From: Crossaster papposus
Taxonomy: Eukaryota > Echinodermata > Asteroidea > Velatida > Solasteridae
DNA length: 64,000 nt
NCBI GenBank assembly: GCA_037893245.1
Contig: JBAIAA010000665.1
Location: forward strand, 310,001-374,000
Reading direction: 5' to 3'
Shown here: one piece after another, positions 536 through 29,322 of the stretch
Numbering within the stretch: position 1 is the stretch's first letter
How the letters are laid out: each line of letters opens with the position of its first letter
Position numbers and translations under genes: made by a program
Notes under the pieces: model-generated
Told to the model about the DNA's origin: nothing
Databases searched by the model: none
The model's input: the letters and a program-made list of their open reading frames with translations, nothing else

Positions 536-539
536 TTAA

Positions 540-935: not shown

Positions 936-1151
936 CACAAACTGACGTCAGCGGGCCCTGCTTGCCTCGCTTCTACTGCAACGAGTCCTCGACCCGCCCG
1001 GACCAGTCCATTTGTCCTGAGGGGTACTTCTGCCAGGGGACCACGTTTAACCCCGACCCGTGTCCAAGTGGAACATTCTCTAACGTCACTGGTCTGGCCG
1101 TTGCTTCGGAATGCCCGGATTGCACACCTTGGTTCTACTGTGAAGGAACTG
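936..1151 (+). CDS. GCC2/GCC3-like cysteine-rich domain exon, copy 1 (reference)
   Basis: This is an internal exon, not a whole gene. The acceptor is TTTTTTTGCAATGCAG and the donor is GTAAAC at 1152. Both introns are phase 1, so the 216-bp exon (72 codons) can be duplicated or skipped without breaking frame. The peptide starts AQTDVSGPCLPRFYC and ends CTPWFYCEGTG. It has eight cysteines (domain residues 9, 15, 27, 33, 43, 60, 63, 69) and two N-glycosylation sequons, N16-E-S and N50-V-T. The CPxGYFC and CPSGTFS-type motifs match GCC2/GCC3 (ephrin-receptor-like) repeats of large secreted or membrane proteins. The open frame runs 55 bases upstream into the intron, giving a false start (MEYSY) whose hydrophobic stretch is translated pyrimidine tract rather than a signal peptide. 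Domain family is recognised by pattern only. Confidence 0.8.
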
Positions 1152-1307
1152 GTAAACCTCCCCTTCCCCTCCCTCCAAAAAAGATCGTTGTAGAGCTGTG
1201 CATCGGGACCCGGTATTTGAGCAGATTCCAGGTGGACCGATCCGGCCTGTCAATCGAACAGAACGCTTTGACCAAATAGATTACAACTTTTGGTCAAGTG
1301 ACTTCAA

Positions 1308-1520
1308 CCAGTTCGTGCCGGATGACGTATTTAAACGCAAAGTTTTTCCCAGATTTGAAACGGATGACGCATAAACGCCAAGAGCAAGGCCAGAACTGCC
1401 TGTCAGCAGCGAGCAAGGCCGGAAATGCGTGGGTGTGCTTCCCGGTGCTATCGGCCTGAACCTGCCTCGGATCGAGTTTCGTTAAAAATAATCCCGCGCG
1501 TCAGCTCGGTGATGTTAAAA
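1308..1520. mobile_element. Right-truncated relative of the TTAA MITE (reference copy)
   Basis: Begins CCAGTTCGTGCCGGATGACG and follows the 225-bp MITE in order (AAACGCCAAG, GGCCGGAAATG twice, CCTGCCTCGGATCG, CTCGGTGATGTTAAAA). The right terminal repeat is replaced by CAGTTGCTACAGTCG and the satellite. Every unit has one such copy downstream of its exon. In the shortened units it is cut off at GCGTGGGTG by the satellite. Confidence 0.75.
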
Positions 1521-1553
1521 CAGTTGCTACAGTCGTAGTCCGCCATAACCTCG

Positions 1554-2633
1554 GTCAAACTCGGTCAAACCGGTTCAAACCCGTTCAAACCGGTTCAAAC
1601 CCGTTCAAACCGGTTCAAACCCGTTCAAACCGGTTCAAACCCGTTCAAACCCGTTCAAACCCGTTCAAACCCGTTCAAACCCGTTCAAACCCGTTCAAAC
1701 CCGTTCAAACCCGTTCAAACCCGTTCAAACCCGTTCAAACCCGTTCAAACCCGTTCAAACCCGTTCAAACCCGTTCAAACCCGTTCAAACCCGTTCAAAC
1801 CCGTTCAAACCCGTTCAAACCCGTTCAAACCCGTTCAAACCCGTTCATACCCGTTCAAACCCGTTCATACCCGTTCAAACCCGTTCAAACCCGTTCAAAC
1901 CCGTTCAAACCCGTTCAAACCCGTTCAAACCCGTTCAAACCCGTTCAAACCCGTTCAAACCCGTTCAAACCCGTTCAAACCCGTTCAAACCCGTTCAAAC
2001 CCGTTCAAACCCGTTCAAACCCGTTCAAACCCGTTCAAACCCGTTCAAACCCGTTCAAACCCGTTCAAACCCGTTCAAACCCGTTCAAACCCGTTCAAAC
2101 CCGTTCAAACCCGTTCAAACCCGTTCACACCCGTTCACACCCGTTCACACCCGTTCACACCCGTTCACACCCGTTCACACCCGTTCACACCCGTTCACAC
2201 CCGTTCAAACCCGTTCAAACCCGTTCAAACCCGTTCAAACCCGTTCAAACCCGTTCAAACCCGTTCAAACCCGTTCAAACCCGTTCAAACCCGTTCAAAC
2301 CCGTTCAAACCCGTTCAAACCCGTTCAAACCCGTTCAAACCCGTTCAAACCCGTTCAAACCCGTTCAAACCCGTTCAAACCCGTTCAAACCCGTTCAAAC
2401 CCGTTCAAACCCGTTCAAACCCGTTCAAACCCGTTCAAACCCGTTCAAACCCGTTCAAACCCGTTCAAACCCGTTCAAACCCGTTCAAACCCGTTCAAAC
2501 CCGTTCAAACCCGTTCAAACCCGTTCAAACCCGTTCAAACCCGTTCAAACCCGTTCAAACCCGTTCAAACCCGTTCAAACCCGTTCAAACCCGTTCAAAC
2601 CCGTTCAAACCCGTTCAAACCCGTTCAAACCCG
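1554..2633 (+). repeat. Decamer minisatellite, block 2 (1.08 kb)
   Basis: About 108 decamers. The start alternates GGTTCAAACC and GTTCAAACCC. There are two GTTCATACCC units near 1850, and a run of about eight GTTCACACCC units at 2125-2204. Confidence 0.97.
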
Positions 2634-3231
2634 CTCCATTTCTTAAAATGTTTGATGGGTCATAAACTACAACTGTGCCAAATTTCATGCTTCTATGAAA
2701 AATCCCACAATTATTTCACATATCTGCCCCACTATTTTTTTCTTCCAATGATAGTCAGCCGACCATCGTCGGAAATTGATACAAAAACAATACACTTTTT
2801 GTTTAAATGACCACACCATGTGCTTGAGACATTAACCAGTTCGCGCCGGATGACGAATATAAACGCCAAGTTTTCCCCAGATTAAAAACGGATGACGCAT
2901 AAACACGCCACGAGAAAGGCCGGAAATGTCTGTCAGCAGCGAGCAAGGCCGGAAATGTGTGGGTGTGCTTCCCGGCCTGAACCTGCCTCGGATCGGGTTT
3001 CGTTAAAAATAATCATGCCCCTCGGCTCGGTGATGTTAAAATAATCCCGGCGCGAACTGGTTAACTAAGGTATTTCATAATAATTTGGTAGTTCTGTGTT
3101 TTGATGTTTGTTGTATTTTTATCTTTAATCTTTACAACCAAATCAAACAAATGCTTGTTTTTTAGATTTTGTTGAATTGGAGTACTCATACCATTTTTTT
3201 CTTCTCTGCGTTATCTTTTTTTGCAATGCAG

Positions 3232-3447
3232 CACAAACTGACGTCAGCGGGCCCTGCTTGCCTCGCTTCTACTGCAACGAGTCCTCGACCCGCCCGGACC
3301 AGTCCATTTGTCCTTTGGGGTACTTCTGCCAGGGGACCACGTTTAACCCCGACCCGTGTCCAAGTGGAACATTCTCTAACGTCACTGGTCTGGCCGTTGC
3401 TTCGGAATGCCCGGATTGCACACCTTGGTTCTACTGTGAAGGAACTG
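3232..3447 (+). CDS. GCC2/GCC3-like domain exon, copy 2
   Basis: Same splice borders as copy 1. Residue 29 changes from Glu to Leu (CPLGYFC) through a GAG-to-TTG codon change shared only with copy 6, which links these two copies by descent or conversion. It follows the second-longest satellite block. Confidence 0.8.
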
Positions 3448-3849
3448 GTAAACCTCCCCTTCCCCTCCCTCCAAAAAAGATCGTTGTAGAGCTGTGCATC
3501 GGGACCCGGTATTTGAGCAGATTCCAGGTGGACCGATCCGGCCTGTCAATCGAACAGAACGCTTTGACCAAATAGATTACAACTTTTGGTCAAGTGACTT
3601 CAACCAGTTCGTGCCGGATGACGTATTTAAACGCAAAGTTTTTTCCCAGATTTGAAACGGATGACGCATAAACGCCAAGAGCAAGGCCAGAAATGCCTGT
3701 CAGCAGCGAGCAAGGCCGGAAATGCGTGGGTGTGCTTCCCGGTGCTATCGGCCTGAACCTGCCTCGGATCGAGTTTCGTTAAAAATAATCCCGCGCGTCA
3801 GCTCGGTGATGTTAAAACAGTTGCTACAGTCGTAGTCCGCCATAACCTT

Positions 3850-4170
3850 GGTCAAACTCGTTCAAACTCGTTCAAACGCGTTCAAACGCGTTCAAACCCG
3901 TTCAAACCCGTTCAAACCCGTTCAAACCCGTTCAAACCCGTTCAAACCCGTTCAAACCCGTTCAAACCCGTTCAAACCCGTTCAAACCCGTTCAAACCCG
4001 TTCAAACCCGTTCAAACCCGTTCAAACCCGTTCAAACCCGTTCAAACCCGTTCAAACCCGTTCAAACCCGTTCAAACCCGTTCAAACCCGTTCAAACCCG
4101 TTCAAACCCGTTCAAACCCGTTCAAACCCGTTCAAACCCGTTCAAACCCGTTCAAACCCGTTCAAACCCG
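3850..4170 (+). repeat. Decamer minisatellite, block 3
   Basis: About 32 units, opening with two TC and two GC variants and then uniform. Confidence 0.97.
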
Positions 4171-4769
4171 CTCCATTTCTTAAAATGTTTGATGGGTCAT
4201 AAACTACAACTGTGCCAAATTTTATGCTTCTATGAAAAATCCCACAATTATTTCACATATCTGCCCCACTATTTTTTTTCTTCCAATGATAGTCAGCCGA
4301 CCATCGTCGGAAATTGATACAAAAACAATACACTTTTTGTTTAAATGACCACACCATGTGCTTGAGACATTAACCAGTTCGCGCCGGATGACGAATATAA
4401 ACGCCAAGTTTTCCCCAGATTCAAAACGGATGACGCATAAACACGCCACGAGAAAGGCCGGAAATGTCTGTCAGCAGCGAGCAAGGCCGGAAATGTGTGG
4501 GTGTGCTTCCCGGCCTGAACCTGCCTCGGATCGGGTTTCGTTAAAAATAATCATGCCCCTCGGCTCGGTGATGTTAAAATAATCCCGGCGCGAACTGGTT
4601 AACTAAGGTATTTCATAATAATTTGGTAGTTCTGTGTTTTGATGTTTGTTGTATTTTTATCTTTAATCTTTACAACCAAATCAAACAAATGCTTGTTTTT
4701 TAGATTTTGTTGAATTGGAGTACTCATACCATTTTTTTCTTCTCTGCGTTATCTTTTTTTGCAATGCAG

Positions 4770-4985
4770 CACAAACTGACGTCAGCGGGCCCTGCTTGCC
4801 TCGCTTCTACTGCAACGAGTCCTCGACCCGCCCGGACCAGTCCATTTGTCCTGAGGGGTACTTCTGCCAGGGGACCACGTTTAACCCCGACCCGTGTCCA
4901 AGTGGAACATTCTCTAACGTCACTGGTCTGGCCGTTGCTTCGGAATGCCCGGATTGCACACCTTGGTTCTACTGTGAAGGAACTG
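4770..4985 (+). CDS. GCC2/GCC3-like domain exon, copy 3
   Basis: Protein identical to copy 1, with acceptor and donor intact. The preceding satellite begins with two GTTCAAACTC and two GTTCAAACGC variants, the same start as the block at 36. Confidence 0.8.
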
Positions 4986-5388
4986 GTAAACCTCCCCTTC
5001 CCCTCCCTCCAAAAAAGATCGTTGTAGAGCTGTGCATCGGGACCCGGTATTTGAGCAGATTCCAGGTGGACCGATCCGGCCTGTCAATCGAACAGAACGC
5101 TTTGACCAAATAGATTACAACTTTTGGTCAAGTGACTTCAACCAGTTCGTGCCGGATGACGTATTTAAACGCAAAGTTTTTTCCCAGATTTGAAACGGAT
5201 GACGCATAAACGCCAAGAGCAAGGCCAGAAATGCCTGTCAGCAGCGAGCAAGGCCGGAAATGCGTGGGTGTGCTTCCCGGTGCTATCGGCCTGAACCTGC
5301 CTCGGATCGAGTTTCGTTAAAAATAATCCCGCGCGTCAGCTCGGTGATGTTAAAACAGTTGCTACAGTCGTAGTCCGCCATAACCTCG

Positions 5389-5718
5389 GTCAAACTCGTT
5401 CAAACTCGTTCAAACGCGTTCAAACGCGTTCAAACCCGTTCAAACCCGTTCAAACCCGTTCAAACCCGTTCAAACCCGTTCAAACCCGTTCAAACCCGTT
5501 CAAACCCGTTCAAACCCGTTCAAACCCGTTCAAACCCGTTCAAACCCGTTCAAACCCGTTCAAACCCGTTCAAACCCGTTCAAACCCGTTCAAACCCGTT
5601 CAAACCCGTTCAAACCCGTTCAAACCCGTTCAAACCCGTTCAAACCCGTTCAAACCCGTTCAAACCCGTTCAAACCCGTTCAAACCCGTTCAAACCCGTT
5701 CAAACCCGTTCAAACCCG
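5389..5718 (+). repeat. Decamer minisatellite, block 4
   Basis: About 33 units with the same opening variants as block 3. Confidence 0.97.
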
Positions 5719-6317
5719 CTCCATTTCTTAAAATGTTTGATGGGTCATAAACTACAACTGTGCCAAATTTTATGCTTCTATGAAAAATCCCACAATTATT
5801 TCACATATCTGCCCCACTATTTTTTTTCTTCCAATGATAGTCAGCCGACCATCGTCGGAAATTGATACAAAAACAATACACTTTTTGTTTAAATGACCAC
5901 ACCATGTGCTTGAGACATTAACCAGTTCGCGCCGGATGACGAATATAAACGCCAAGTTTTCCCCAGATTCAAAACGGATGACGCATAAACACGCCACGAG
6001 AAAGGCCGGAAATGTCTGTCAGCAGCGAGCAAGGCCGGAAATGTGTGGGTGTGCTTCCCGGCCTGAACCTGCCTCGGATCGGGTTTCGTTAAAAATAATC
6101 ATGCCCCTCGGCTCGGTGATGTTAAAATAATCCCGGCGCGAACTGGTTAACTAAGGTATTTCATAATAATTTGGTAGTTCTGTGTTTTGATGTTTGTTGT
6201 ATTTTTATCTTTAATCTTTACAACCAAATCAAACAAATGCTTGTTTTTTAGATTTTGTTGAATTGGAGTACTCATACCATTTTTTTCTTCTCTGCGTTAT
6301 CTTTTTTTGCAATGCAG

Positions 6318-6533
6318 CACAAACTGACGTCAGCGGGCCCTGCTTGCCTCGCTTCTACTGCAACGAGTCCTCGACCCGCCCGGACCAGTCCATTTGTCCT
6401 GAGGGGTACTTCTGCCAGGGGACCACGTTTAACCCCGACCCGTGTCCAAGTGGAACATTCTCTAACGTCACTGGTCTGGCCGTTGCTTCGGAATGCCCGG
6501 ATTGCACACCTTGGTTCTACTGTGAAGGAACTG
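6318..6533 (+). CDS. GCC2/GCC3-like domain exon, copy 4
   Basis: Protein identical to copy 1. The unit is a near duplicate of the one holding copy 3 (spacing 1548 bp), and the two satellites begin with the same variants. Confidence 0.8.
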
Positions 6534-6935
6534 GTAAACCTCCCCTTCCCCTCCCTCCAAAAAAGATCGTTGTAGAGCTGTGCATCGGGACCCGGTATTT
6601 GAGCAGATTCCAGGTGGACCGATCCGGCCTGTCAATCGAACAGAACGCTTTGACCAAATAGATTACAACTTTTGGTCAAGTGACTTCAACCAGTTCGTGC
6701 CGGATGACGTATTTAAACGCAAAGTTTTTCCCAGATTTGAAACGTATGACGCATAAACGCCAAGAGCAAGGCCAGAAATGCCTGTCAGCAGCGAGCAAGG
6801 CCGGAAATGCGTGGGTGTGCTTCCCGGTGCTATCGGCCTGAACCTGCCTCGGATCGAGTTTCGTTAAAAATAATCTCGCGCGTCAGCTCGGTGATGTTAA
6901 AACAGTTGCTACAGTCGTAGTCCGCCATAACCTCG

Positions 6936-8135
6936 GTCAAACTCGTTCAAACTCGTTCAAACTCGTTCTAACCCGTTCAAACTCGTTCAAACTCGTTCAA
7001 ACTCGTTCAAACTCGTTCAAACCCGTTCAAACCCGTTCAAACCCGTTCAAACTCGTTCAAACTCGTTCAAACTCGTTCAAAACCGTTCAAACCCGTTCAA
7101 ACCCGTTCAAACCCGTTCAAACCCGTTCAAACCCGTTCAAACCCGTTCAAACCCGTTCAAACCCGTTCAAACCCGTTCAAACCCGTTCAAACCCGTTCAA
7201 ACCCGTTCAAACCCGTTCAAACCCGTTCAAACCCGTTCAAACCCGTTCAAACCCGTTCAAACCCGTTCACACCCGTTCACACCCGTTCACACCCGTTCAC
7301 ACCCGTTCACACCCGTTCAAACCCGTTCAAACCCGTTCAAACCCGTTCAAACCCGTTCAAACCCGTTCAAACCCGTTCAAACCCGTTCAAACCCGTTCAA
7401 ACCCGTTCAAACCCGTTCAAACCCGTTCAAACCCGTTCAAACCCGTTCAAACCCGTTCAAACCCGTTCAAACCCGTTCAAACCCGTTCAAACCCGTTCAA
7501 ACCCGTTCAAACCCGTTCAAACCCGTTCAAACCCGTTCAAACCCGTTCAAACCCGTTCAAACCCGTTCAAACCCGTTCAAACCCGTTCAAACCCGTTCAA
7601 ACCCGTTCAAACCCGTTCAAACCCGTTCAAACCCGTTCAAACCCGTTCAAACCCGTTCAAACCCGTTCAAACCCGTTCAAACCCGTTCAAACCCGTTCAA
7701 ACCCGTTCAAACCCGTTCAAACCCGTTCAAACCCGTTCAAACCCGTTCAAACCCGTTCAAACCCGTTCAAACCCGTTCAAACCCGTTCAAACCCGTTCAA
7801 ACCCGTTCAAACCCGTTCAAACCCGTTCAAACCCGTTCAAACCCGTTCAAACCCGTTCAAACCCGTTCAAACCCGTTCAAACCCGTTCAAACCCGTTCAA
7901 ACCCGTTCAAACCCGTTCAAACCCGTTCAAACCCGTTCAAACCCGTTCAAACCCGTTCAAACCCGTTCAAACCCGTTCAAACCCGTTCAAACCCGTTCAA
8001 ACCCGTTCAAACCCGTTCAAACCCGTTCAAACCCGTTCAAACCCGTTCAAACCCGTTCAAACCCGTTCAAACCCGTTCAAACCCGTTCAAACCCGTTCAA
8101 ACCCGTTCAAACCCGTTCAAACCCGTTCAAACCCG
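6936..8135 (+). repeat. Decamer minisatellite, block 5 (1.2 kb, longest)
   Basis: About 120 decamers. The first 150 bp mixes GTTCAAACTC and GTTCAAACCC. Five GTTCACACCC units occur at about 7266-7315, and the remaining 800 bp is uniform. Confidence 0.97.
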
Positions 8136-8734
8136 CTCCATTTCTTAAAATGTTTGATGGGTCATAAACTACAACTGTGCCAAATTTCATGCTTCTATGA
8201 AAAATCCCACAATTATTTCACATATCTGCCCCACTATTTTTTTTCTTCCAATGATAGTCAGCCGACCATCGTCGGAAATTGATACAAAAACAATACACTT
8301 TTTGTTTAAATGACCACACCATGTGCTTGAGACATTAACCAGTTCGCGCCGGATGACGAATATAAACGCCAAGTTTTCCCCAGATTCAAAACGGATGACG
8401 CATAAACACGCCACGAGAAAGGCCGGAAATGTCTGTCAGCAGCGAGCAAGGCCGGAAATGTGTGGGTGTGCTTCCCGGCCTGAACCTGCCTCGGATCGGG
8501 TTTCGTTAAAAATAATCATGCCCCTCGGCTCGGTGATGTTAAAATAATCCCGGCGCGAACTGGTTAACTAAGGTATTTCATAATAATTTGGTAGTTCTGT
8601 GTTTTGATGTTTGTTGTATTTTTATCTTTAATCTTTACAACCAAATCAAACAAATGCTTGTTTTTTAGATTTTGTTGAATTGGAGTACTCATACCATTTT
8701 TTTCTTCTCTGCGTTATCTTTTTTTGCAATGCAG

Positions 8735-8950
8735 CACAAACTGACGTCAGCGGGCCCTGCTTGCCTCGCTTCTACTGCAACGAGTCCTCGACCCGCCCGG
8801 ACCAGTCCATTTGTCCTGAGGGGTACCTCTGCCAGGGGACCACGTTTAACCCCGACCCGTGTCCAAGTGGAACATTCTCTAACGTCACTGGTCTGGCCGT
8901 TGCTTCGGAATGCCCGGATTGCACACCTTGGTTCTACTGTGAAGGAACTG
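8735..8950 (+). CDS. GCC2/GCC3-like domain exon, copy 5
   Basis: Residue 32 is Leu instead of Phe (CPEGYLC) through one T-to-C change. All eight cysteines and both splice sites are kept. It follows the longest satellite block in the window. Confidence 0.8.
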
Positions 8951-9352
8951 GTAAACCTCCCCTTCCCCTCCCTCCAAAAAAGATCGTTGTAGAGCTGTGC
9001 ATCGGGACCCGGTATTTGAGCAGATTCCAGGTGGACCGATCCGGCCTGTCAATCGAACAGAACGCTTTGACCAAATAGATTACAACTTTTGGTCAAGTGA
9101 CTTCAACCAGTTCGTGCCGGATGACGTATTTAAACGCAAAGTTTTTCCCAGATTTGAAACGTATGACGCATAAACGCCAAGAGCAAGGCCAGAAATGCCT
9201 GTCAGCAGCGAGCAAGGCCGGAAATGCGTGGGTGTGCTTCCCGGTGCTATCGGCCTGAACCTGCCTCGGATCGAGTTTCGTTAAAAATAATCCCGCGCGT
9301 CAGCTCGGTGATGTTAAAACAGTTGCTACAGTCGTAGTCCGCCATAACCTCG

Positions 9353-9985
9353 GTCAAACTCGTTCAAACTCGTTCAAACTCGTTCAAACTCGTTCAAACT
9401 CGTTCAAACCCGTTCAAACTCGTTCAAACTCGTTCAAACTCGTTCAAACTCGTTCAAACCCGTTCAAACCCGTTCAAACCCGTTCAAACTCGTTCAAACT
9501 CGTTCAAACCCGTTCAAAACCGTTCAAACCCGTTCAAACCCGTTCAAACCCGTTCAAACCCGTTCAAACCCGTTCAAACCCGTTCAAACCCGTTCAAACC
9601 CGTTCAAACCCGTTCAAACCCGTTCAAACCCGTTCAAACCCGTTCAAACCCGTTCAAACCCGTTCAAACCCGTTCAAACCCGTTCAAACCCGTTCAAACC
9701 CGTTCAAACCCGTTCAAACCCGTTCAAACCCGTTCAAACCCGTTCAAACCCGTTCAAACCCGTTCAAACCCGTTCAAACCCGTTCAAACCCGTTCAAACC
9801 CGTTCAAACCCGTTCAAACCCGTTCATACCCGTTCAAACCCGTTCAAACCCGTTCAAACCCGTTCAAACCCGTTCAAACCCGTTCAAACCCGTTCAAACC
9901 CGTTCAAACCCGTTCAAACCCGTTCAAACCCGTTCAAAACCCGTTCAAAACCCGTTCAAAACCCGTTCAAAACCCGTTCAAACCA
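9353..9985 (+). repeat. Decamer minisatellite, block 6
   Basis: Mixed TC/CC units at the start. The last four or so units are 11-mers (GTTCAAAACCC), and the right border reads CCAGCTCC instead of CCCGCTCC. Confidence 0.96.
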
Positions 9986-10586: not shown

Positions 10587-10802
10587 CACAAACTGACGTC
10601 AGCGGGCCCTGCTTGCCTCGCTTCTACTGCAACGAGTCCTCGACCCGCCCGGACCAGTCCATTTGTCCTTTGGGGTACTTCTGCCAGGGGACCACGTTTA
10701 ACCCCGACCCGTGTCCAAGTGGAACATTCTCTAACGTCACTGGTCTGGCCGTTGCTTCGGAATGCCCGGATTGCACACCTTGGTTCTACTGTGAAGGAAC
10801 TG
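10587..10802 (+). pseudogene. GCC2/GCC3-like domain exon, copy 6, splice donor lost
   Basis: The donor GTAAAC seen in the other sixteen copies reads ATAAAC here (base 10803 is A). The normal 5' splice site is therefore gone and the exon is probably skipped, or read through toward the stop at 10928. Because the exon is phase 1-1, skipping would keep frame. It shares the Glu29-to-Leu change with copy 2. Confidence 0.75.
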
Positions 10803-12265: not shown

Positions 12266-12481
12266 CACAAACTGACGTCAGCGGGCCCTGCTTGCCTCGC
12301 TTCTACTGCAACGAGTCCTCGACCCGCCCGGACCAGTCTATTTGTCCTGAGGGGTACTTCTGCCAGGGGACCACGTTTAACCCCGACCCGTGTCCAAGTG
12401 GAACATTCTCTAACGTCACTGGTCTGGCCGTTGCTTCGGAATGCCCGGATTGCACACCTTGGTTCTACTGTGAAGGAACTG
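12266..12481 (+). CDS. GCC2/GCC3-like domain exon, copy 7
   Basis: Protein as copy 1, with a silent TCC-to-TCT change at Ser25 that is shared only with copy 8. Splice sites intact. Confidence 0.8.
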
Positions 12482-13972: not shown

Positions 13973-14188
13973 CACAAACTGACGTCAGCGGGCCCTGCTT
14001 GCCTCGCTTCTACTGCAACGAGTCCTCGACCCGCCCGGACCAGTCTATTTGTCCTGAGGGGTACTTCTGCCAGGGGACCACGTTTAACCCCGACCCGTGT
14101 CCAAGTGGAACATTCTCTAACGTCACTGGTCTGGCCGTTGCTTCGGAATGCCCGGATTGCACACCTTGGTTCTACTGTGAAGGAACTG
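13973..14188 (+). CDS. GCC2/GCC3-like domain exon, copy 8
   Basis: Carries the same silent change as copy 7, so the two units are sister duplicates. Splice sites intact. Confidence 0.8.
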
Positions 14189-15439: not shown

Positions 15440-15655
15440 CACAAACTGACGTCAGCGGGCCCTGCTTGCCTCGCTTCTACTGCAACGAGTCCTCGACCCG
15501 CCCGGACCAGTCCATTTGTCCTGAGGGGTACTTCTGCCAGGGGACCACGTTTAACCCCGACCCGTGTCCAAGTGGAACATTCTCTAACGTCACTGGTCTG
15601 GCCGTTGCTTCGGAATGCCCGGATTGCACACCTTGGTTCTACTGTGAAGGAACTG
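15440..15655 (+). CDS. GCC2/GCC3-like domain exon, copy 9
   Basis: Protein as copy 1. The intron upstream differs at two points: TTTTTAAG replaces TTTTTTAG, and GTTAACAAAGG replaces GTTAACTAAGG. It is the last copy followed by a satellite of the shortened (1.10 kb core) type's first example. Confidence 0.8.
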
Positions 15656-16748: not shown

Positions 16749-16964
16749 CACAAACTGACGTCAGCGGGCCCTGCTTGCCTCGCTTCTACTGCAACGAGTC
16801 CTCGACCCGCCCGGACCAGTCCATTTGTCCTGAGGGGTACTTCTGCCAGGGGACCACGTTTAACCCCGACCCGTGTCCAAGTGGAACATTCTCTAACGTC
16901 ACTGGTCTGGCCGTTGCTTCGGAATGCCCGGATTGCACACCTTGGTTCTACTGTGAAGGAACTG
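16749..16964 (+). CDS. GCC2/GCC3-like domain exon, copy 10
   Basis: Protein as copy 1, inside the shortened unit type. Splice sites intact. Confidence 0.8.
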
Positions 16965-18027: not shown

Positions 18028-18243
18028 CACAAACTGACGTCAGCGGGCCCTGCTTGCCTCGCTTCTACTGCAACGAGTCCTCGACCCGCCCGGACCAGTC
18101 CATTTGTCCTGAGGGGTACTTCTGCCAGGGGACCACGTTTAACCCCGACCCGTGTCCAAGTGGAACATTCTCTAACGTCACTGGTCTGGCCGTTGCTTCG
18201 GAATGCCCGGATTGCACACCTTGGTTCTACTGTGAAGGAACTG
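18028..18243 (+). CDS. GCC2/GCC3-like domain exon, copy 11
   Basis: Exon identical in protein to copy 1. Downstream intronic changes (GTCAAACGAACAG at about 18341 and GGATAACGC at about 18455) are shared with copy 14. They mark the left edge of the 5.5-kb higher-order repeat. Confidence 0.8.
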
Positions 18244-18644: not shown

Positions 18645-18898
18645 GGTCAACCTCGGTCAAACTCGTTCAAACTCGTTCAAACTCGTTCAAACTCGTTCAA
18701 ACTCGTTCAAACTCGTTCAAACTCGTTCAAACTCGTTTGAACGGGTTTGAACGGGTTTGAACGGGTTTGAACGGGTTTGAACGGGTTTGAACGGGTTTGA
18801 ACGGGTTTGAACGGGTTTGAACGGGTTTGAACGGGTTTGAACGGGTTTGAACGGGTTTGAACGGGTTTGAACGGGTTTGAACGGGTTTGAACGGGTTT
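18645..18898. repeat. Decamer minisatellite, block 12, orientation flips at about 18735
   Basis: Nine or so GTTCAAACTC units run forward to about 18735. The sequence then turns into GGGTTTGAAC, the reverse complement, to 18898, where it abuts a minus-strand SINE. The junction CAAACTCGTTTGAACG is itself palindromic, so the block can fold on itself. Confidence 0.95.
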
Positions 18899-19112
18899 CA
18901 AATGAAGCGAAGAGTGTTACTGGGTTCTTTTACGTGCATTACACAACGCACGGGACCTACAGCTTTACGTCCCATCCGAAGGACGAAGCAATAGTGGTTT
19001 AATTGCCTTGCTTAAGGACACATGTGTCGACACCGGGACTCGAACCCACGCTCTGCGGAACAGAAATCCGAGTTCTTAACCGCCCGGTCACGACACTCCA
19101 ATGACCCGGCTA
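18899..19112 (-). mobile_element. tRNA-derived SINE, minus strand (copy 1)
   Basis: Read on the minus strand, a tRNA-like head (19025-19099) contains an A-box-like TGACCGGGCGG and a canonical B box GGTTCGAGTCC. After it come GTGTCCTTAAGCAAGGC and CCTTCGGATGGGACG, boxes seen in metazoan SINEs. The 3' tail ends ATTTGAAACCCGTTC and passes straight into the decamer minisatellite. Confidence 0.75.
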
Positions 19113-19177
19113 TAGTTATGTATTTCTGCTGTAATCACATCTAAATTTGAGATCTCCAATTCTCTAAATCCTACCAG

Positions 19178-19404
19178 GCACGTACCAGCCCTCCATGGCC
19201 GAGACAAACTGCGAGATCTGCCCCGAGTTTTTTTTCTGCATGGTCAACACCAGCGTGCCCGAGGATTGCAGTGCCTACTCCTACTGCCCACAGGGCTCCA
19301 TTGAGCCCACCCCATTGAGCCCACCCCTTGCCCTAATGGCACGTACACCATGGATGGCGTCCAGGGGCTGAAGCATGCGACGCAGTGCACCCAATGCCCA
19401 ACAG
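19178..19404 (+). pseudogene. Exon B, cysteine-rich domain, frameshifted (copy 1)
   Basis: The acceptor is CTAAATCCTACCAG and the donor is GTCGGT, phase 1 on both sides. The frame gives GTYQPSMAETNCEICPEF and then, after a lesion, CPNGTYTMDGVQGL and TQCTQCPTG. The lesion is a 14-bp tandem duplication of ATTGAGCCCACCCC at about 19299-19326, which shifts frame and leads to a stop. Without it the exon would be 213 bp (71 codons). Confidence 0.75.
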
Positions 19405-19890: not shown

Positions 19891-19917
19891 ATAACATTTA
19901 TTGGTTTCATCTTTCAG

Positions 19918-20057
19918 GGAGTTACTGCCGCGGTGGTTGGATTGCAGGTCCCTGCACGGCAGGATTCATCTGTTACTCTGGCTGTGACAGCCTGACCCCG
20001 ACGGATCAGACCCAGTCGTGGGAGAGGTATGCCCTAGCGGCTACTACTGCTTGGAAG
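19918..20057 (+). pseudogene. Exon D, cysteine-rich domain, one-base frameshift (copy 1)
   Basis: The acceptor is TTTCATCTTTCAG and the donor is GTAACT. The peptide begins GSYCRGGWIAGPCTAG and should end GEVCPSGYYCLEG. The frame breaks at CTGACCCCGACGG, where a fifth C would restore it, giving 141 bp (47 codons, phase 1-1). Confidence 0.7.
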
Positions 20058-20210
20058 GTAACTCAGTTTTTACACAAATGCTAGGTCTGTTAATTAATTT
20101 GTAATTTGAATATCTGTTTTTTTAATGTAGATGTACATGTATGTATTAAACAGGTCAGCTTCGGAAACTTTCAGCAAAAGCAAATGTTACTGTAAATACT
20201 GTATGTACCC

Positions 20211-20669
20211 GTTCACACCCGTTCACACCCGTTCACACCCGTTCACACCCGTTCACACCCGTTCAAACCCGTTCACACCCGTTCAAACCCGTTCACACCC
20301 GTTCAAACCCGTTCACACCCGTTCAAACCCGTTCAAACCCGTTCAAACCCGTTCAAACCCGTTCAAACCAGTTCAAACCAGTTCAAACCCGTTCAAACCC
20401 GTTCAAACCCGTTCAAACCCGTTCAAACCCGTTCAAACCCGTTCAAACCCGTTCAAACCCGTTCAAACCCGTTCAAACCCGTTCAAACCCGTTCACACCC
20501 GTTCACACCCGTTCAAACCCGTTCACACCCGTTCACACCCGTTCACACCCGTTCACACCCGTTCACACCCGTTCACACCCGTTCACACCCGTTCACACCC
20601 GTTCACACCCGTTCACACCCGTTCACACCCGTTCACACCCGTTCACACCCGTTCACACCCGTTCACACC
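20211..20669 (+). repeat. Decamer minisatellite, block 13, GTTCACACCC-rich
   Basis: About 46 units in a symmetric pattern: GTTCACACCC at both ends, mixed units next, and GTTCAAACCC (with two CAG variants) in the middle. It starts after TGTATGTACCC and ends inside a MITE that has lost its left end. Confidence 0.96.
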
Positions 20670-21053
20670 GGATGACGAATATAAACGCCAAGTTTTCCCC
20701 AGATTCAAAACGGATGACGCATAAACACGCCACGAGAAAGGCCGGAAATGTCTGTCAGCAGCGAGCAAGGCCGGAAATGTGTGGGTGTGCTTCCCGGCCT
20801 GAACCTGCCTCGGATCGAGTTTCGTTAAAAATAATCATGCCCCTCGGCTCGGTGATGTTAAAATAATCCCGGCGCGAACTGGTTAACTAAGGTATTTCAT
20901 AATAATTTGGTAGTTCTGTGTTTTGATGTTTGTTGTATTTTTATCTTTAATCTTTACAACCAAATCAAACAAATGCTTGTTTTTTAGATTTTGTTGAATT
21001 GGAGTACTCATACCATTTTTTTCTTCTCTGCGTTATCTTTTTTTGCAATGCAG

Positions 21054-21269
21054 CACAAACTGACGTCAGCGGGCCCTGCTTGCCTCGCTTCTACTGCAAC
21101 GAGTCCTCGACCCGCCCGGACCAGTCCATTTGTCCTGAGGGGTACTTCTGCCAGGGGACCACGTTTAACCCCGACCCGTGTCCAAGTGGAACATTCTCTA
21201 ACGTCACTGGTCTGGCCGTTGCTTCGGAATGCCCGGATTGCACACCTTGGTTCTACTGTGAAGGAACTG
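21054..21269 (+). CDS. GCC2/GCC3-like domain exon, copy 12
   Basis: Protein as copy 1. The upstream MITE has lost its left terminal repeat, and the satellite joins it directly at 20669. Confidence 0.8.
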
Positions 21270-21552
21270 GTAAACCTCCCCTTCCCCTCCCTCCAAAAAA
21301 GATCGTTGTAGAGCTGTGCATCGGGACCCGGTATTTGAGCAGATTCCAGGTGGACCGATCCGGCCTGTCAATCGAACAGAACGCTTTGACCAAATAGATT
21401 ACAACTTTTGGTCAAGTGACTTCAACCAGTTCGTGCCGGATGACGTATTTAAACGCAAAGTTTTTCCCAGATTTGAAACGGATGACGCATAAACGCCAAG
21501 AGCAAGGCCAGAAATGCCTGTCAGCAGCGAGCAAGGCCGGAAATGCGTGGGT

Positions 21553-21753
21553 GTTCAAACCAGTTCAAACCCGTTCAAACCCGTTCAAACCCGTTCAAAC
21601 CCGTTCAAACCCGTTCAAACCCGTTCAAACCCGTTCAAACCCGTTCAAACCCGTTCAAACCCGTTCAAACCCGTTCAAACCCGTTCAAACCCGTTCAAAC
21701 CCGTTCAAACCCGTTCAAACCCGTTCAAACCCGTTCAAACCCGTTCAAACCCG
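21553..21753 (+). repeat. Decamer minisatellite, block 14
   Basis: About 20 units with one GTTCAAACCA at the start and the deleted left border. Confidence 0.97.
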
Positions 21754-22352
21754 CTCCATTTCTTAAAATGTTTTATGGGTCATAAACTACAACTGTGCCA
21801 AATTTCATGCTTCTATGAAAAATCCCACAATTATTTCACATATCTGCCCCACTATTTTTTTTCTTCCAATGATAGTCAGCCGACCATCGTCGGAAATTGA
21901 TACAAAAACAATACACTTTTTGTTTAAATGACCACACCATGTGCTTGAGACATTAACCAGTTCGCGCCGGATGACGAATATAAACGCCAAGTTTTCCCCA
22001 GATTCAAAACGGATGACGCATAAACACGCCACGAGAAAGGCCGGAAATGTCTGTCAGCAGCGAGCAAGGCCGGAAATGTGTGGGTGTGCTTCCCGGCCTG
22101 AACCTGCCTCGGATCGAGTTTCGTTAAAAATAATCATGCCCCTCGGCTCGGTGATGTTAAAATAATCCCGGCGCGAACTGGTTAACTAAGGTATTTCATA
22201 ATAATTTGGTAGTTCTGTGTTTTGATGTTTGTTGTATTTTTATCTTTAATCTTTACAACCAAATCAAACAAATGCTTGTTTTTTAGATTTTGTTGAATTG
22301 GAGTACTCATACCATTTTTTTCTTCTCTGCGTTATCTTTTTTTGCAATGCAG

Positions 22353-22568
22353 CACAAACTGACGTCAGCGGGCCCTGCTTGCCTCGCTTCTACTGCAACG
22401 AGTCCTCGACCCGCCCGGACCAGTCCATTTGTCCTGAGGGGTACTTCTGCCAGGGGACCACGTTTAACCCCGACCCGTGTCCAAGTGGAACATTCTCTAA
22501 CGTCACTGGTCTGGCCGTTGCTTCGGAATGCCCGGATTACACACCTTGGTTCTACTGTGAAGGAACTG
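22353..22568 (+). CDS. GCC2/GCC3-like domain exon, copy 13, Cys63 lost
   Basis: TGC becomes TAC, so the motif CPDCTPW reads CPDYTPW. One of eight cysteines is lost, which should leave an unpaired cysteine if the domain forms four disulfides (inference). The change is shared with copy 16 at the equivalent place in the next higher-order repeat. Confidence 0.78.
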
Positions 22569-22851
22569 GTAAACCTCCCCTTCCCCTCCCTCCAAAAAAG
22601 ATCGTTGTAGAGCTGTGCATCGGGACCCGGTATTTGAGCAGATTCCAGGTGGACCGATCCGGCCTGTCAATCGAACAGAACGCTTTGACCAAATAGATTA
22701 CAACTTTTGGTCAAGTGACTTCAACCAGTTCGTGCCGGATGACGTATTTAAACGCAAAGTTTTTCCCAGATTTGAAACGGATGACGCATAAACGCCAAGA
22801 GCAAGGCCAGAAATGCCTGTCAGCAGCGAGCAAGGCCGGAAATGCGTGGGT

Positions 22852-23022
22852 GTTCAAACCCGTTCAAACCCGTTCAAACCCGTTCAAACCCGTTCAAACC
22901 CGTTCAAACCCGTTCAAACCCGTTCAAACCCGTTCAAACCCGTTCAAACCCGTTCAAACCCGTTCAAACCCGTTCAAACCCGTTCAAACCCGTTCAAACC
23001 CGTTCAAACCTGTTCAAACCCG
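22852..23022 (+). repeat. Decamer minisatellite, block 15
   Basis: About 17 units with a CCTGTTC variant in the penultimate unit and the deleted left border. Confidence 0.97.
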
Positions 23023-23621
23023 CTCCATTTCTTAAAATGTTTTATGGGTCATAAACTACAACTGTGCCAAATTTCATGCTTCTATGAAAAATCCCACAAT
23101 TATTTCACATATCTGCCCCACTATTTTTTTTCTTCCAATGATAGTCAGCCGACCATCGTCGGAAATTGATACAAAAACAATACACTTTTTGTTTAAATGA
23201 CCACACCATGTGCTTGAGACATTAACCAGTTCGCGCCGGATGACGAATATAAACGCCAAGTTTTCCCCAGATTCAAAACGGATGACGCATAAACACGCCA
23301 CGAGAAAGGCCGGAAATGTCTGTCAGCAGCGAGCAAGGCCGGAAATGTGTGGGTGTGCTTCCCGGCCTGAACCTGCCTCGGATCGAGTTTCGTTAAAAAT
23401 AATCATGCCCCTCGGCTCGGTGATGTTAAAATAATCCCGGCGCGAACTGGTTAACTAAGGTATTTCATAATAATTTGGTAGTTCTGTGTTTTGATGTTTG
23501 TTGTATTTTTATCTTTAATCTTTACAACCAAATCAAACAAATGCTTGTTTTTTAGATTTTGTTGAATTGGAGTACTCATACCATTTTTTTCTTCTCTGCG
23601 TTATCTTTTTTTGCAATGCAG

Positions 23622-23837
23622 CACAAACTGACGTCAGCGGGCCCTGCTTGCCTCGCTTCTACTGCAACGAGTCCTCGACCCGCCCGGACCAGTCCATTTG
23701 TCCTGAGGGGTACTTCTGCCAGGGGACCACGTTTAACCCCGACCCGTGTCCAAGTGGAACATTCTCTAACGTCACTGGTCTGGCCGTTGCTTCGGAATGC
23801 CCGGATTGCACACCTTGGTTCTACTGTGAAGGAACTG
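23622..23837 (+). CDS. GCC2/GCC3-like domain exon, copy 14
   Basis: Protein as copy 1. It carries the same downstream intronic variants as copy 11 and opens the second 5.5-kb repeat. Confidence 0.8.
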
Positions 23838-24239
23838 GTAAACCTCCCCTTCCCCTCCCTCCAAAAAAGATCGTTGTAGAGCTGTGCATCGGGACCCGGT
23901 ATTTGAGCAGATTCCAGGTGGACCGATCCGGCCTGTCAAACGAACAGAACGCTTTGACCAAATAGATTACAACTTTTGGTCAAGTGACTTCAACCAGTTC
24001 GTGCCGGATGACGTATTTAAACGCAAAGTTTTTCCCAGATTTGAAACGGATAACGCATAAACGCCAAGAGCAAGGCCAGAAATGCCTGTCAGCAGCGAGC
24101 AAGGCCGGAAATGCGTGGGTGTGCTTCCCGGTGCTATCGGCCTGAACCTGCCTCGGATCGAGTTTCGTTAAAAATAATCCCGCGCGTCAGCTCGGTGATG
24201 TTAAAACAGTTGCTACAGTCGTAGTCCGCCATAACCTCG

Positions 24240-24442
24240 GTCAAACTCGTTCAAACTCGTTCAAACTCGTTCAAACTCGTTCAAACTCGTTCAAACTCGT
24301 TCAAACTCGTTCAAACTCGTTCAAACTCGTTTGAACGGGTTTGAACGGGTTTGAACGGGTTTGAACGGGTTTGAACGGGTTTGAACGGGTTTGAACGGGT
24401 TTGAACGGGTTTGAACGGGTTTGAACGGGTTTGAACGGGTTT
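24240..24442. repeat. Decamer minisatellite, block 16, orientation flips at about 24330
   Basis: Same forward-then-reverse structure as block 12. The reverse arm has fewer units (11 or so against 16). Confidence 0.95.
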
Positions 24443-24656
24443 CAAATGAAGCGAAGAGTGTTACTGGGTTCTTTTACGTGCATTACACAACGCACGGGAC
24501 CTACAGCTTTACGTCCCATCCGAAGGACGAAGCAATAGTGGTTTAATTGCCTTGCTTAAGGACACATGTGTCGACACCGGGACTCGAACCCACGCTCTGC
24601 GGAACAGAAATCCGAGTTCTTAACCGCCCGGTCACGACACTCCAATGACCCGGCTA
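24443..24656 (-). mobile_element. tRNA-derived SINE, minus strand (copy 2)
   Basis: Carried by the second higher-order repeat, with its tRNA-like head at 24569-24643. By eye the same as copy 1, so it was multiplied by DNA duplication and not by separate insertion. Confidence 0.75.
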
Positions 24657-24721
24657 TAGTTATGTATTTCTGCTGTAATCACATCTAAATTTGAGATCTC
24701 CAATTCTCTAAATCCTACCAG

Positions 24722-24949
24722 GCACGTACCAGCCCTCCATGGCCGAGACAAACTGCGAGATCTGCCCCGAGTTTTTTTTCTGCATGGTTCAACACCAGCG
24801 TGCCCGAGGATTGCAGTGCCTACTCCTACTGCCCACAGGGCTCCATTGAGCCCACCCCATTGAGCCCACCCCTTGCCCTAATGGCACGTACACCATGGAT
24901 GGCGTCCAGGGGCTGAAGCATGCGACGCAGTGCACCCAATGCCCAACAG
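24722..24949 (+). pseudogene. Exon B, frameshifted (copy 2)
   Basis: Has the same 14-bp duplication as copy 1 plus an extra T in ATGGTTCAACAC near 24788, a second frame lesion private to this copy. Confidence 0.75.
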
Positions 24950-25298
24950 GTCGGTTTACTGTCAAGGAATAATTCGAACCAAACTATAGCTTGTTTGCTG
25001 AAACGTACTCTTTTTTAATTAGGTAATAAATCAGTGCGAGGACCCGGTTATTACTGCGTGATAATGACCGGGTTGGGGGATGACCGCTGGCAATGGATCG
25101 AGCCGAACTGTTATTACCTTTAATAAATACCTTTTTAACGAGAACAATTGTGTGCAGAAGTCCTTTTTTTATCCTTATTTTGTTCTGCCAAATCCTTTCG
25201 ATCCTACTTTTTCGCCTTGGTCTGCTTAATAAGAGCCTGCATCCTATCCTGCATCCCATCTTGATTTATTGTTATATTTTATTGGTTTGATTCCTTAG

Positions 25299-25435
25299 GG
25301 AGTTACTGCCGAGGGGGTAGGATTGCAGGTCCCTGCACAGCAGGATTCATCTGCTACTCTGGCTCTGACACCCCGACCCCCTACGGATCAGACCCAGTCG
25401 GGGGAGAGCTATGCCCTTTTGGCTGCTATGAGTTG
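25299..25435 (+). pseudogene. Exon C without donor (copy 2)
   Basis: Same sequence and same missing donor as copy 1. Confidence 0.65.
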
Positions 25436-25462
25436 ATAACATTTATTGGTTTCATCTTTCAG

Positions 25463-25602
25463 GGAGTTACTGCCGCGGTGGTTGGATTGCAGGTCCCTGC
25501 ACGGCAGGATTCATCTGTTACTCTGGCTGTGACAGCCTGACCCCGACGGATCAGACCCAGTCGTGGGAGAGGTATGCCCTAGCGGCTACTACTGCTTGGA
25601 AG
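25463..25602 (+). pseudogene. Exon D, one-base frameshift (copy 2)
   Basis: Same short C run as copy 1. Confidence 0.7.
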
Positions 25603-25755
25603 GTAACTCAGTTTTTACACAAATGCTAGGTCTGTTAATTAATTTGTAATTTGAATATCTGTTTTTTTAATGTAGATGTACATGTATGTATTAAACAGGT
25701 CAGCTTCGGAAACTTTCAGCAAAAGCAAATGTTACTGTAAATACTGTATGTACCC

Positions 25756-26114
25756 GTTCACACCCGTTCACACCCGTTCACACCCGTTCACACCCGTTCA
25801 CACCCGTTCACACCCGTTCAAACCCGTTCACACCCGTTCAAACCCGTTCACACCCGTTCAAACCCGTTCACACCCGTTCAAACCCGTTCAAACCCGTTCA
25901 AACCCGTTCAAACCAGTTCAAACCCGTTCAAACCCGTTCAAACCAGTTCAAACCAGTTCAAACCCGTTCAAACCCGTTCAAACCCGTTCAAACCCGTTCA
26001 AACCCGTTCAAACCCGTTCACACCCGTTCACACCCGTTCAAACCCGTTCACACCCGTTCACACCCGTTCACACCCGTTCACACCCGTTCACACCCGTTCA
26101 CACCCGTTCACACC
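25756..26114 (+). repeat. Decamer minisatellite, block 17, GTTCACACCC-rich
   Basis: Counterpart of block 13. It is shorter, with the same CACACCC ends and AAACCA variants in a rearranged order. Confidence 0.96.
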
Positions 26115-26498
26115 GGATGACGAATATAAACGCCAAGTTTTCCCCAGATTCAAAACGGATGACGCATAAACACGCCACGAGAAAGGCCGGAAATGTCTGT
26201 CAGCAGCGAGCAAGGCCGGAAATGTGTGGGTGTGCTTCCCGGCCTGAACCTGCCTCGGATCGAGTTTCGTTAAAAATAATCATGCCCCTCGGCTCGGTGA
26301 TGTTAAAATAATCCCGGCGCGAACTGGTTAACTAAGGTATTTCATAATAATTTGGTAGTTCTGTGTTTTGATGTTTGTTGTATTTTTATCTTTAATCTTT
26401 ACAACCAAATCAAACAAATGCTTGTTTTTTAGATTTTGTTGAATTGGAGTACTCATACCATTTTTTTCTTCTCTGCGTTATCTTTTTTTGCAATGCAG

Positions 26499-26714
26499 CA
26501 CAAACTGACGTCAGCGGGCCCTGCTTGCCTCGCTTCTACTGCAACGAGTCCTCGACCCGCCCGGACCAGTCCATTTGTCCTGAGGGGTACTTCTGCCAGG
26601 GGACCACGTTTAACCCCGACCCGTGTCCAAGTGGAACATTCTCTAACGTCACTGGTCTGGCCGTTGCTTCGGAATGCCCGGATTGCACACCTTGGTTCTA
26701 CTGTGAAGGAACTG
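26499..26714 (+). CDS. GCC2/GCC3-like domain exon, copy 15
   Basis: Equivalent of copy 12 in the second higher-order repeat. It has the same left-truncated MITE, joined to satellite at 26114. Splice sites intact. Confidence 0.8.
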
Positions 26715-26997
26715 GTAAACCTCCCCTTCCCCTCCCTCCAAAAAAGATCGTTGTAGAGCTGTGCATCGGGACCCGGTATTTGAGCAGATTCCAGGTGGAC
26801 CGATCCGGCCTGTCAATCGAACAGAACGCTTTGACCAAATAGATTACAACTTTTGGTCAAGTGACTTCAACCAGTTCGTGCCGGATGACGTATTTAAACG
26901 CAAAGTTTTTCCCAGATTTGAAACGGATGACGCATAAACGCCAAGAGCAAGGCCAGAAATGCCTGTCAGCAGCGAGCAAGGCCGGAAATGCGTGGGT

Positions 26998-27228
26998 GTT
27001 CAAACCAGTTCAAACCCGTTCAAACCCGTTCAAACCCGTTCAAACCCGTTCAAACCCGTTCAAACCCGTTCAAACCCGTTCAAACCCGTTCAAACCCGTT
27101 CAAACCCGTTCAAACCCGTTCAAACCCGTTCAAACCCGTTCAAACCCGTTCAAACCCGTTCAAACCCGTTCAAACCCGTTCAAACCCGTTCAAACCCGTT
27201 CAAACCCGTTCAAACCCGTTCAAACCCG
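26998..27228 (+). repeat. Decamer minisatellite, block 18
   Basis: About 23 units, starting with the AAACCA variant like block 14. Confidence 0.97.
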
Positions 27229-27827
27229 CTCCATTTCTTAAAATGTTTTATGGGTCATAAACTACAACTGTGCCAAATTTCATGCTTCTATGAAAAATCC
27301 CACAATTATTTCACATATCTGCCCCACTATTTTTTTTCTTCCAATGATAGTCAGCCGACCATCGTCGGAAATTGATACAAAAACAATACACTTTTTGTTT
27401 AAATGACCACACCATGTGCTTGAGACATTAACCAGTTCGCGCCGGATGACGAATATAAACGCCAAGTTTTCCCCAGATTCAAAACGGATGACGCATAAAC
27501 ACGCCACGAGAAAGGCCGGAAATGTCTGTCAGCAGCGAGCAAGGCCGGAAATGTGTGGGTGTGCTTCCCGGCCTGAACCTGCCTCGGATCGAGTTTCGTT
27601 AAAAATAATCATGCCCCTCGGCTCGGTGATGTTAAAATAATCCCGGCGCGAACTGGTTAACTAAGGTATTTCATAATAATTTGGTAGTTCTGTGTTTTGA
27701 TGTTTGTTGTATTTTTATCTTTAATCTTTACAACCAAATCAAACAAATGCTTGTTTTTTAGATTTTGTTGAATTGGAGTACTCATACCATTTTTTTCTTC
27801 TCTGCGTTATCTTTTTTTGCAATGCAG

Positions 27828-28043
27828 CACAAACTGACGTCAGCGGGCCCTGCTTGCCTCGCTTCTACTGCAACGAGTCCTCGACCCGCCCGGACCAGTC
27901 CATTTGTCCTGAGGGGTACTTCTGCCAGGGGACCACGTTTAACCCCGACCCGTGTCCAAGTGGAACATTCTCTAACGTCACTGGTCTGGCCGTTGCTTCG
28001 GAATGCCCGGATTACACACCTTGGTTCTACTGTGAAGGAACTG
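27828..28043 (+). CDS. GCC2/GCC3-like domain exon, copy 16, Cys63 lost
   Basis: Carries the same Cys63-to-Tyr change as copy 13. Splice sites intact. Confidence 0.78.
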
Positions 28044-28326
28044 GTAAACCTCCCCTTCCCCTCCCTCCAAAAAAGATCGTTGTAGAGCTGTGCATCGGGA
28101 CCCGGTATTTGAGCAGATTCCAGGTGGACCGATCCGGCCTGTCAATCGAACAGAACGCTTTGACCAAATAGATTACAACTTTTGGTCAAGTGACTTCAAC
28201 CAGTTCGTGCCGGATGACGTATTTAAACGCAAAGTTTTTCCCAGATTTGAAACGGATGACGCATAAACGCCAAGAGCAAGGCCAGAAATGCCTGTCAGCA
28301 GCGAGCAAGGCCGGAAAAGCGTGGGT

Positions 28327-28507
28327 GTTCAAACCCGTTCAAACCCGTTCAAACCCGTTCAAACCCGTTCAAACCCGTTCAAACCCGTTCAAACCCGTTC
28401 AAACCCGTTCAAACCCGTTCAAACCCGTTCAAACCCGTTCAAACCCGTTCAAACCCGTTCAAACCCGTTCAAACCCGTTCAAACCCGTTCAAACCCGTTC
28501 AAACCCG
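28327..28507 (+). repeat. Decamer minisatellite, block 19
   Basis: About 18 uniform units. The left border reads GGAAAAGCGTGGGTG, a one-base change from the other shortened units. Confidence 0.97.
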
Positions 28508-29106
28508 CTCCATTTCTTAAAATGTTTTATGGGTCATAAACTACAACTGTGCCAAATTTCATGCTTCTATGAAAAATCCCACAATTATTTCACATATCTG
28601 CCCCACTATTTTTTTTCTTCCAATGATAGTCAGCCGACCATCGTCGGAAATTGATACAAAAACAATACACTTTTTGTTTAAATGACCACACCATGTGCTT
28701 GAGACATTAACCAGTTCGCGCCGGATGACGAATATAAACGCCAAGTTTTCCCCAGATTCAAAACGGATGACGCATAAACACGCCACGAGAAAGGCCGGAA
28801 ATGTCTGTCAGCAGCGAGCAAGGCCGGAAATGTGTGGGTGTGCTTCCCGGCCTGAACCTGCCTCGGATCGAGTTTCGTTAAAAATAATCATGCCCCTCGG
28901 CTCGGTGATGTTAAAATAATCCCGGCGCGAACTGGTTAACTAAGGTATTTCATAATAATTTGGTAGTTCTGTGTTTTGATGTTTGTTGTATTTTTATCTT
29001 TAATCTTTACAACCAAATCAAACAAATGCTTGTTTTTTAGATTTTGTTGAATTGGAGTACTCATACCATTTTTTTCTTCTCTGCGTTATCTTTTTTTGCA
29101 ATGCAG

Positions 29107-29322
29107 CACAAACTGACGTCAGCGGGCCCTGCTTGCCTCGCTTCTACTGCAACGAGTCCTCGACCCGCCCGGACCAGTCCATTTGTCCTGAGGGGTACTT
29201 CTGCCAGGGGACCACGTTTAACCCCGACCCGTGTCCAAGTGGAACATTCTCTAACGTCACTGGTCTGGCCGTTGCTTCGGAATGCCCGGATTGCACACCT
29301 TGGTTCTACTGTGAAGGAACTG
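29107..29322 (+). CDS. GCC2/GCC3-like domain exon, copy 17 (last)
   Basis: Protein as copy 1. It lacks the GTCAAACG variant of copies 11 and 14, although it too precedes an inverted satellite and exons B-D. That suggests gene conversion or unequal exchange at this junction. Confidence 0.8.

Follow-up and report, generated by a model that had tools for sequence, protein, structure and literature searches.

The 64,000-bp window analyzed here (C665:310001–374000, C665 being contig JBAIAA010000665.1 of the Crossaster papposus assembly) contains the 3' end of a tandem array of a 216-bp cysteine-rich exon, designated exon A. Based on comparisons within this assembly, we interpret the locus as exon-bearing satellite DNA seated on a decayed copy of a multi-copy gene, and assign this interpretation a probability of approximately 80%. 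The array unit includes transposon-like elements and a minisatellite in addition to the exon, the downstream exons carried with it are disabled, and nearly 900 copies of exon A are present in the assembly overall.

Copies of Exon A

A direct scan identifies 17 copies of the exon A segment in the window, all on the plus strand (936–1151 through 29107–29322; Table 1). The exon begins and ends in phase 1, and its 216 bp (72 x 3) encode 72 residues, eight of which are cysteines. Each copy differs from copy 1 by two mismatches at most and nine of the 16 others are identical to it; because sequence identity is so high, a chance origin of the 17 copies is excluded. The 20 bases up to the AG acceptor are the same in 17/17 copies, and the donor is GTAAAC in 16/17, with AT in the copy at 10587–10802. 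A preliminary description of this stretch had reported 17 copies of a symmetric exon sharing one acceptor and, in all but one case, one donor, and in these respects it is borne out. It had also described the encoded domains as identical, but there are four kinds of variants at five sites (E>L, F>L, a synonymous change, and a C>Y replacement that removes one of the eight cysteines), and the number 17 is set by the edge of the window, as the same array extends upstream to 69 copies.

Across 264 kb of the contig (C665:110001–374000) there are 93 copies, 24 at 123519–160362 and 69 at 221449–339322, with a median spacing of ~1.6 kb; 67 of the 93 are identical to copy 1. The assembly as a whole comprises 1.02 Gb in 1841 contigs. 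Counting exact matches only, an exon 44-mer occurs in it 874 times (control, 0), while a 29-mer spanning the junction of exon and donor occurs 843 times in an array-type form and 53 times in a gene-type form (controls, 0). At least 100 array-type copies are found on contig C18.

The region of ~25 kb located 3' of both C665 arrays is itself duplicated at 99.0–99.9% identity (C665:160040–186859 versus C665:339000–364147, or 29000–54147 of the window). The duplication would be either a recent segmental one or the result of the assembly joining two haplotypes.

Anatomy of the Repeated Unit

The array unit consists of a miniature inverted-repeat transposable element (MITE)-like element, exon A, a second related element, and a 10-bp minisatellite (TCAAACCCGT). 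The first copy of the MITE-like element in the window is flanked by TTAA, and we take it to be piggyBac-like. According to the unit alignment, the left end of this element is retained in 15 of the 17 window units, and minisatellite occupies its place in units 12 and 15. When minisatellite is subtracted, the exon-to-exon gaps in the window measure 1000–1002 bp in 6/16 cases and 883 bp in another 6/16; two gaps of 1056 and 1076 bp hold irregular minisatellite, only part of which was caught by the count, and the remaining two hold an extra segment and measure ~2.1 kb without minisatellite. The minisatellite comprises 17 to 120 copies in the 14 simple gaps. Units thus differ chiefly by the copy number of the intervening minisatellite, as would be expected if a short repeat had seeded unequal exchange; unequal crossing-over had already been proposed in the preliminary description, and the anatomy agrees with it. 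A short repeat of variable copy number flanks each unit on both sides, and the upstream border of both C665 arrays opens with two minisatellite units.

A higher-order arrangement is also apparent, as copies 9–11, 12–14, and 15–17 form trimers that show one order of unit types, with some variants common to two trimers but not the third. The repeat of the 10-bp minisatellite is similar in sequence to the MITE's inverted end, and at ~20662 it runs directly into the interior of the element; the minisatellite may therefore have grown out of a transposon end.

Broken Exons and Array Borders

At the downstream border, unit 17 is followed by inverted minisatellite and then by short interspersed nuclear element (SINE)-like sequence and exon B. 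The same points lie 14.7 kb apart on contig C13, and by this comparison ~14.7 kb of the C13-type gene layout is missing at the fusion of array and exon B. The SINE-like sequence 5' of exon B (window 29845–30100) has 1967 first-look candidates in the assembly, 40 of which were scored.

Inside the array there are two sets of exons B, C1, and C2, in addition to the set that follows it. With the copy on contig C1229 as the reference for B, C2, and D, the lesions are a 14-bp tandem duplication in every B, a deletion that breaks the frame of C2, and an insert of ~390 bp that interrupts D (Table 1). The shape of C1 recurs on C13 and C1229 and is consequently not a lesion peculiar to the window copy. 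Among the 40 candidates scored out of 64, exon B with the 14-bp duplication is also found on C136, C489, and C108, which suggests that these contigs may carry arrays as well.

At the upstream border, the two C665 arrays share one and the same starting junction, with a different satellite made up of a CCCCCTCGCGACAAGT minisatellite plus repeats rich in CGCATTTTT. We looked for phase 1-1 exons rich in cysteine with a scan that would miss a first or cysteine-poor exon, and recognized none of this module 5' of either array. Ahead of array 1 the scan returned translations of the satellite region only, and between the arrays it returned satellite translations, the broken exons downstream of array 1, and other cysteine-rich candidates (C665:167628–204948) unlike the module.

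Variation in Exon A

Variation within the arrays was assessed in 87 canonical units, the six of the 93 with other flanks being left out. The exon is variable at 11 of 216 sites, two of which stem from the poorly aligned region of one copy with a 10-bp frameshifting deletion, and the flanks at 34 of 580 (18/330 upstream and 16/250 downstream; Fisher p = 0.73). With the two poorly aligned sites omitted and the E>L double change treated as a single event, the 93 copies record seven nonsynonymous and two synonymous events, close to the 2.4 to 1 expected under neutrality. There is accordingly no sign of purifying selection on exon A within the array, in a comparison whose power is low due to the small number of mutations.

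The gene-type copies compared comprise 15 dispersed loci, C13, C1229, and six copies on C639. All 23 keep the eight cysteines, with 11 nonsynonymous and four synonymous changes among them, and in this set too the exon is as variable as its flanks (14/216 versus 37/580, p = 1.0).

Other Loci and the Likely Ancestral State

Single copies of exon A provide a view of its likely original context. On C13 (1131622–1131837) one copy, identical over 216 bp, lies amid other phase 1-1 cysteine exons in a series that reaches, at 1147257–1147469, an exon B lacking the duplication; a second single exon A is located at 1315938 of the same contig. The first is accompanied by 7.8 minisatellite copies, found downstream of exon A only, and one exon of the C13 locus has fewer cysteines than its C1229 counterpart. 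On C1229 a single exon A is followed, 13.5 kb downstream, by an exon B whose frame is open. We consider C13 a likely model of the ancestral state, unproven as the ancestor itself.

C639 contains five copies spaced at ~2389 bp, followed after a further 4640 bp by a sixth, all with open frames. Because its unit breakpoints fall outside the minisatellite, we infer a separate origin for this array. Scanning 20 kb of its plus strand, we recognized no other cysteine exon. Gene-type pairs of exon A 4.6 kb apart are found on C115, C156, and others; on C156 (20599–819040) such pairs recur four times, ~257–270 kb apart, and larger gene-carrying blocks may also be tandemly repeated there. One genome thus contains apparent stages in the passage from coding exon to satellite, from singles (C13, C1229) through 4.6-kb pairs and a six-copy array to arrays of 24 and 69.

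Proposed Origin and Alternative Explanations

We propose that the arrays began with a multi-copy cysteine-rich gene in which a MITE pair and a short tract of the 10-bp minisatellite adjoined exon A. Expansion would have occurred on a copy from which ~14.7 kb of downstream gene was missing, with the minisatellite tracts on both sides of the exon A unit promoting repeated unequal exchange and multiplying the unit into tens of copies, and into hundreds overall. Some higher-order duplication of trimers would have been added, and the disabled downstream exons of the founding copy would have been carried along. An array formed in this manner would probably make no protein.

Several observations weigh against this scenario. 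The frame is kept in 92/93 C665 copies, the GT donor in 90/93, and the AG acceptor in 93/93, and 90/93 combine a kept frame with at least eight cysteines. Intact frames and donors say little, because only ~0.4 stop mutations are expected from ~11 substitutions, and we rejected intact array frames as evidence of function given that too few mutations have accumulated. More pointedly, C13 and the array consensus differ at 0/216 exon positions versus 13/650 flanking positions (4/380 upstream and 9/270 downstream); at an equal rate ~4 exon differences would be expected (p ~0.01), which hints at constraint on exon A prior to amplification. Moreover, ~100 bp of the array unit, directly after the minisatellite, have no counterpart in the stretches of C13, C1229, and C639 that were read.

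An unlikely alternative is that the arrays are non-coding but transcribed, with their long RNA serving in PIWI-interacting RNA (piRNA)-like silencing of the dispersed gene family or as a splicing decoy against it. Su(Ste), which silences Stellate, provides an analogy for the former role. The long arrays are nearly identical to an exon of ~50 dispersed gene-type copies and contain inverted minisatellite junctions, both compatible with such activity, but nothing specific in the sequence points to a silencing or decoy role.

The arrays could also be a coding-exon variable number tandem repeat (VNTR) like human LPA KIV-2, with one transcript joining many A exons into a length-variable stack of domains. 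We regard this as improbable at best, even though the symmetric exon, the high proportion of open frames and GT donors, and the open frames of the separate C639 array would all suit it. Satellite precedes both C665 arrays, where a scan that would miss a first or cysteine-poor exon recognized no exon of the module; the downstream exons are not intact (frameshifts in the B and C2 copies within the array, an insert in D); the exon shows no constraint within the array; and no other cysteine exon was recognized in the 20 kb of C639 plus strand scanned. On the C665 evidence, and with exon variation at least flank-like, the transcript envisaged in the preliminary description, encoding an extracellular stalk of up to 17 domains, is not supported at this locus. 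Some array copies may be spliced. That some arrays are transcribed with their exons joined in frame, yielding very long polymers of the 72-residue cysteine module (up to 69 domains from the C665 array, and perhaps more elsewhere) whose length would vary between individuals through minisatellite-driven exchange, appears very improbable.

Least probable of all is an assembly artefact, in which falsely duplicated haplotypes or mis-assembled repeats would have inflated the arrays: tandem repeats are error-prone, the assembly is in many contigs, and the two C665 blocks are nearly identical over 25 kb, but the two C665 arrays and the C18 clusters do not agree in copy number or spacing, and hundreds of copies are hard to derive from two haplotypes, even if their exact number is uncertain.

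If the arrays are indeed satellite DNA, they carry a caution for gene prediction, namely that splice-competent exons with open frames can number in the hundreds and still evolve neutrally. Annotation pipelines would be liable to assemble giant spurious proteins out of such exons.

Identity of the Protein Module

The Ephrin_rec_like family (PF07699) was compared with four joined-exon proteins. The highest score belongs to the joined exons B, C2, and D of C1229, whose 22.0 bits (E 1.4e-4) fall short of the curated 23.1-bit cut-off, while exon A with its neighbor scores 9.1 bits (E 1.5). The module, like Ephrin_rec_like, is short and cysteine-rich, and it would be a distant relative of that family at best. 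Pfam and NCBIfam return no significant family for exon A alone or with its neighbor; we attribute a Toxin_34 match (E 0.13) to chance, given how rich the sequence is in cysteine. Searching PDB by sequence gives weak matches only (best E 0.27), and the AlphaFold2 model from exon A and six relatives (seven rows) has a mean predicted local distance difference test (pLDDT) score of 33.4, making it unusable for fold.

Other Elements in the Window

A 631-aa open reading frame (ORF) at 52163–54058 contains a reverse transcriptase domain (PF00078, E 2.4e-32) and has the look of a non-long terminal repeat (non-LTR) retrotransposon. The ORF at 35374–36057 contains a MADF/Myb-SANT-like domain (PF10545, E 9.8e-8) and is possibly derived from a DNA transposon. 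Tandem repeats of ~53 bp based on TTGACGTCAA and TCGCGAATATT occur at 59331–59721 and 60475–60656, in opposite orientations ~0.75 kb apart, and a 41-bp repeat at 57797–58211 is present in ten copies with 95% matches. ARAGORN finds no transfer RNA (tRNA) in the window, while Rfam reports one tRNA-like element at 33266–33338.

Table 1. Features of the exon A array and adjoining gene remnants, in window coordinates.
Feature	Position	Strand	Remarks
MITE-like element	536..768		Inverted ends, TTAA on each side
Exon A copy 1	936..1151	+	216 bp, phase 1-1, 8 Cys
10-bp minisatellite TCAAACCCGT	1555..2634	+	108 copies, gap between copies 1 and 2
Exon A copy 2	3232..3447	+	E>L
Exon A copy 3	4770..4985	+	
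Exon A copy 4	6318..6533	+	
10-bp minisatellite	6937..8136	+	120 copies, longest in window
Exon A copy 5	8735..8950	+	F>L
Exon A copy 6	10587..10802	+	E>L, donor AT
Exon A copy 7	12266..12481	+	Synonymous change
Exon A copy 8	13973..14188	+	Synonymous change
Exon A copy 9	15440..15655	+	Opens trimer 1
Exon A copy 10	16749..16964	+	
Exon A copy 11	18028..18243	+	
Minisatellite flipping to inverted orientation	18657..18900		Junction of unit 11 and exon B segment
Exon B copy 1	19178..19404	+	14-bp tandem duplication, frame shifted
Exon-like C1	19754..19888	+	Lacks the C2 3' end and donor; further copies at 25299 and 30693
Exon C2	19918..20057	+	1-bp deletion versus C1229
Exon A copy 12	21054..21269	+	Opens trimer 2
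Exon A copy 13	22353..22568	+	C>Y, cysteine lost
Exon A copy 14	23622..23837	+	
Exon B copy 2	24722..24949	+	Same 14-bp duplication, further 1-bp indel
Exon C2 copy 2	25463..25602		Same frame break as 19918..20057
Exon A copy 15	26499..26714	+	Opens trimer 3
Exon A copy 16	27828..28043	+	C>Y, cysteine lost
Exon A copy 17	29107..29322	+	Last of array
Inverted minisatellite, 3' end of array	29744..29839	-	Connects exon A unit with SINE-like sequence and exon B
Exon B copy 3	30117..30343	+	Same 14-bp duplication
Exon C2 third copy	30857..30966	+	Additional 30-bp deletion
Exon D, 5' part	31305..31395	+	Interrupted
Insert in exon D, ~390 bp	31396..31783		Terminal inverted repeats; absent from C1229
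Possible exon E remnant	33548..33655	+	Two frames needed

Comparison with Known Systems

Among open-licence PubMed Central (PMC) papers we found none on the exon A array, which does not show that it is unpublished. Stellate and other genic satellites of Drosophila are genic sequences amplified as satellite-like arrays; those arrays consist of whole small genes, whereas a single internal exon is amplified here. The kringle IV-2 repeat of LPA (PMC6314250) belongs to an expressed gene and comprises from 1 to more than 40 units of 5.6 kb with two exons each. Both systems contain high-copy tandem units carrying extracellular-domain exons, and exon A is a symmetric, frame-keeping exon; in Crossaster papposus, however, the downstream exons are broken, 5' exons were not found by our scan, and copy number is far higher. 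The proposed mechanism matches the "high-speed rail" model, described in PMC8831618 as tandem amplification of SRS*N + unit + SRS*N through unequal sister-chromatid exchange. There, as here, a unit bordered on both sides by a short repeat of variable copy number is tandemly amplified, but in this case the unit is not a whole gene but a single symmetric exon with its intron flanks, present in ~840 copies.

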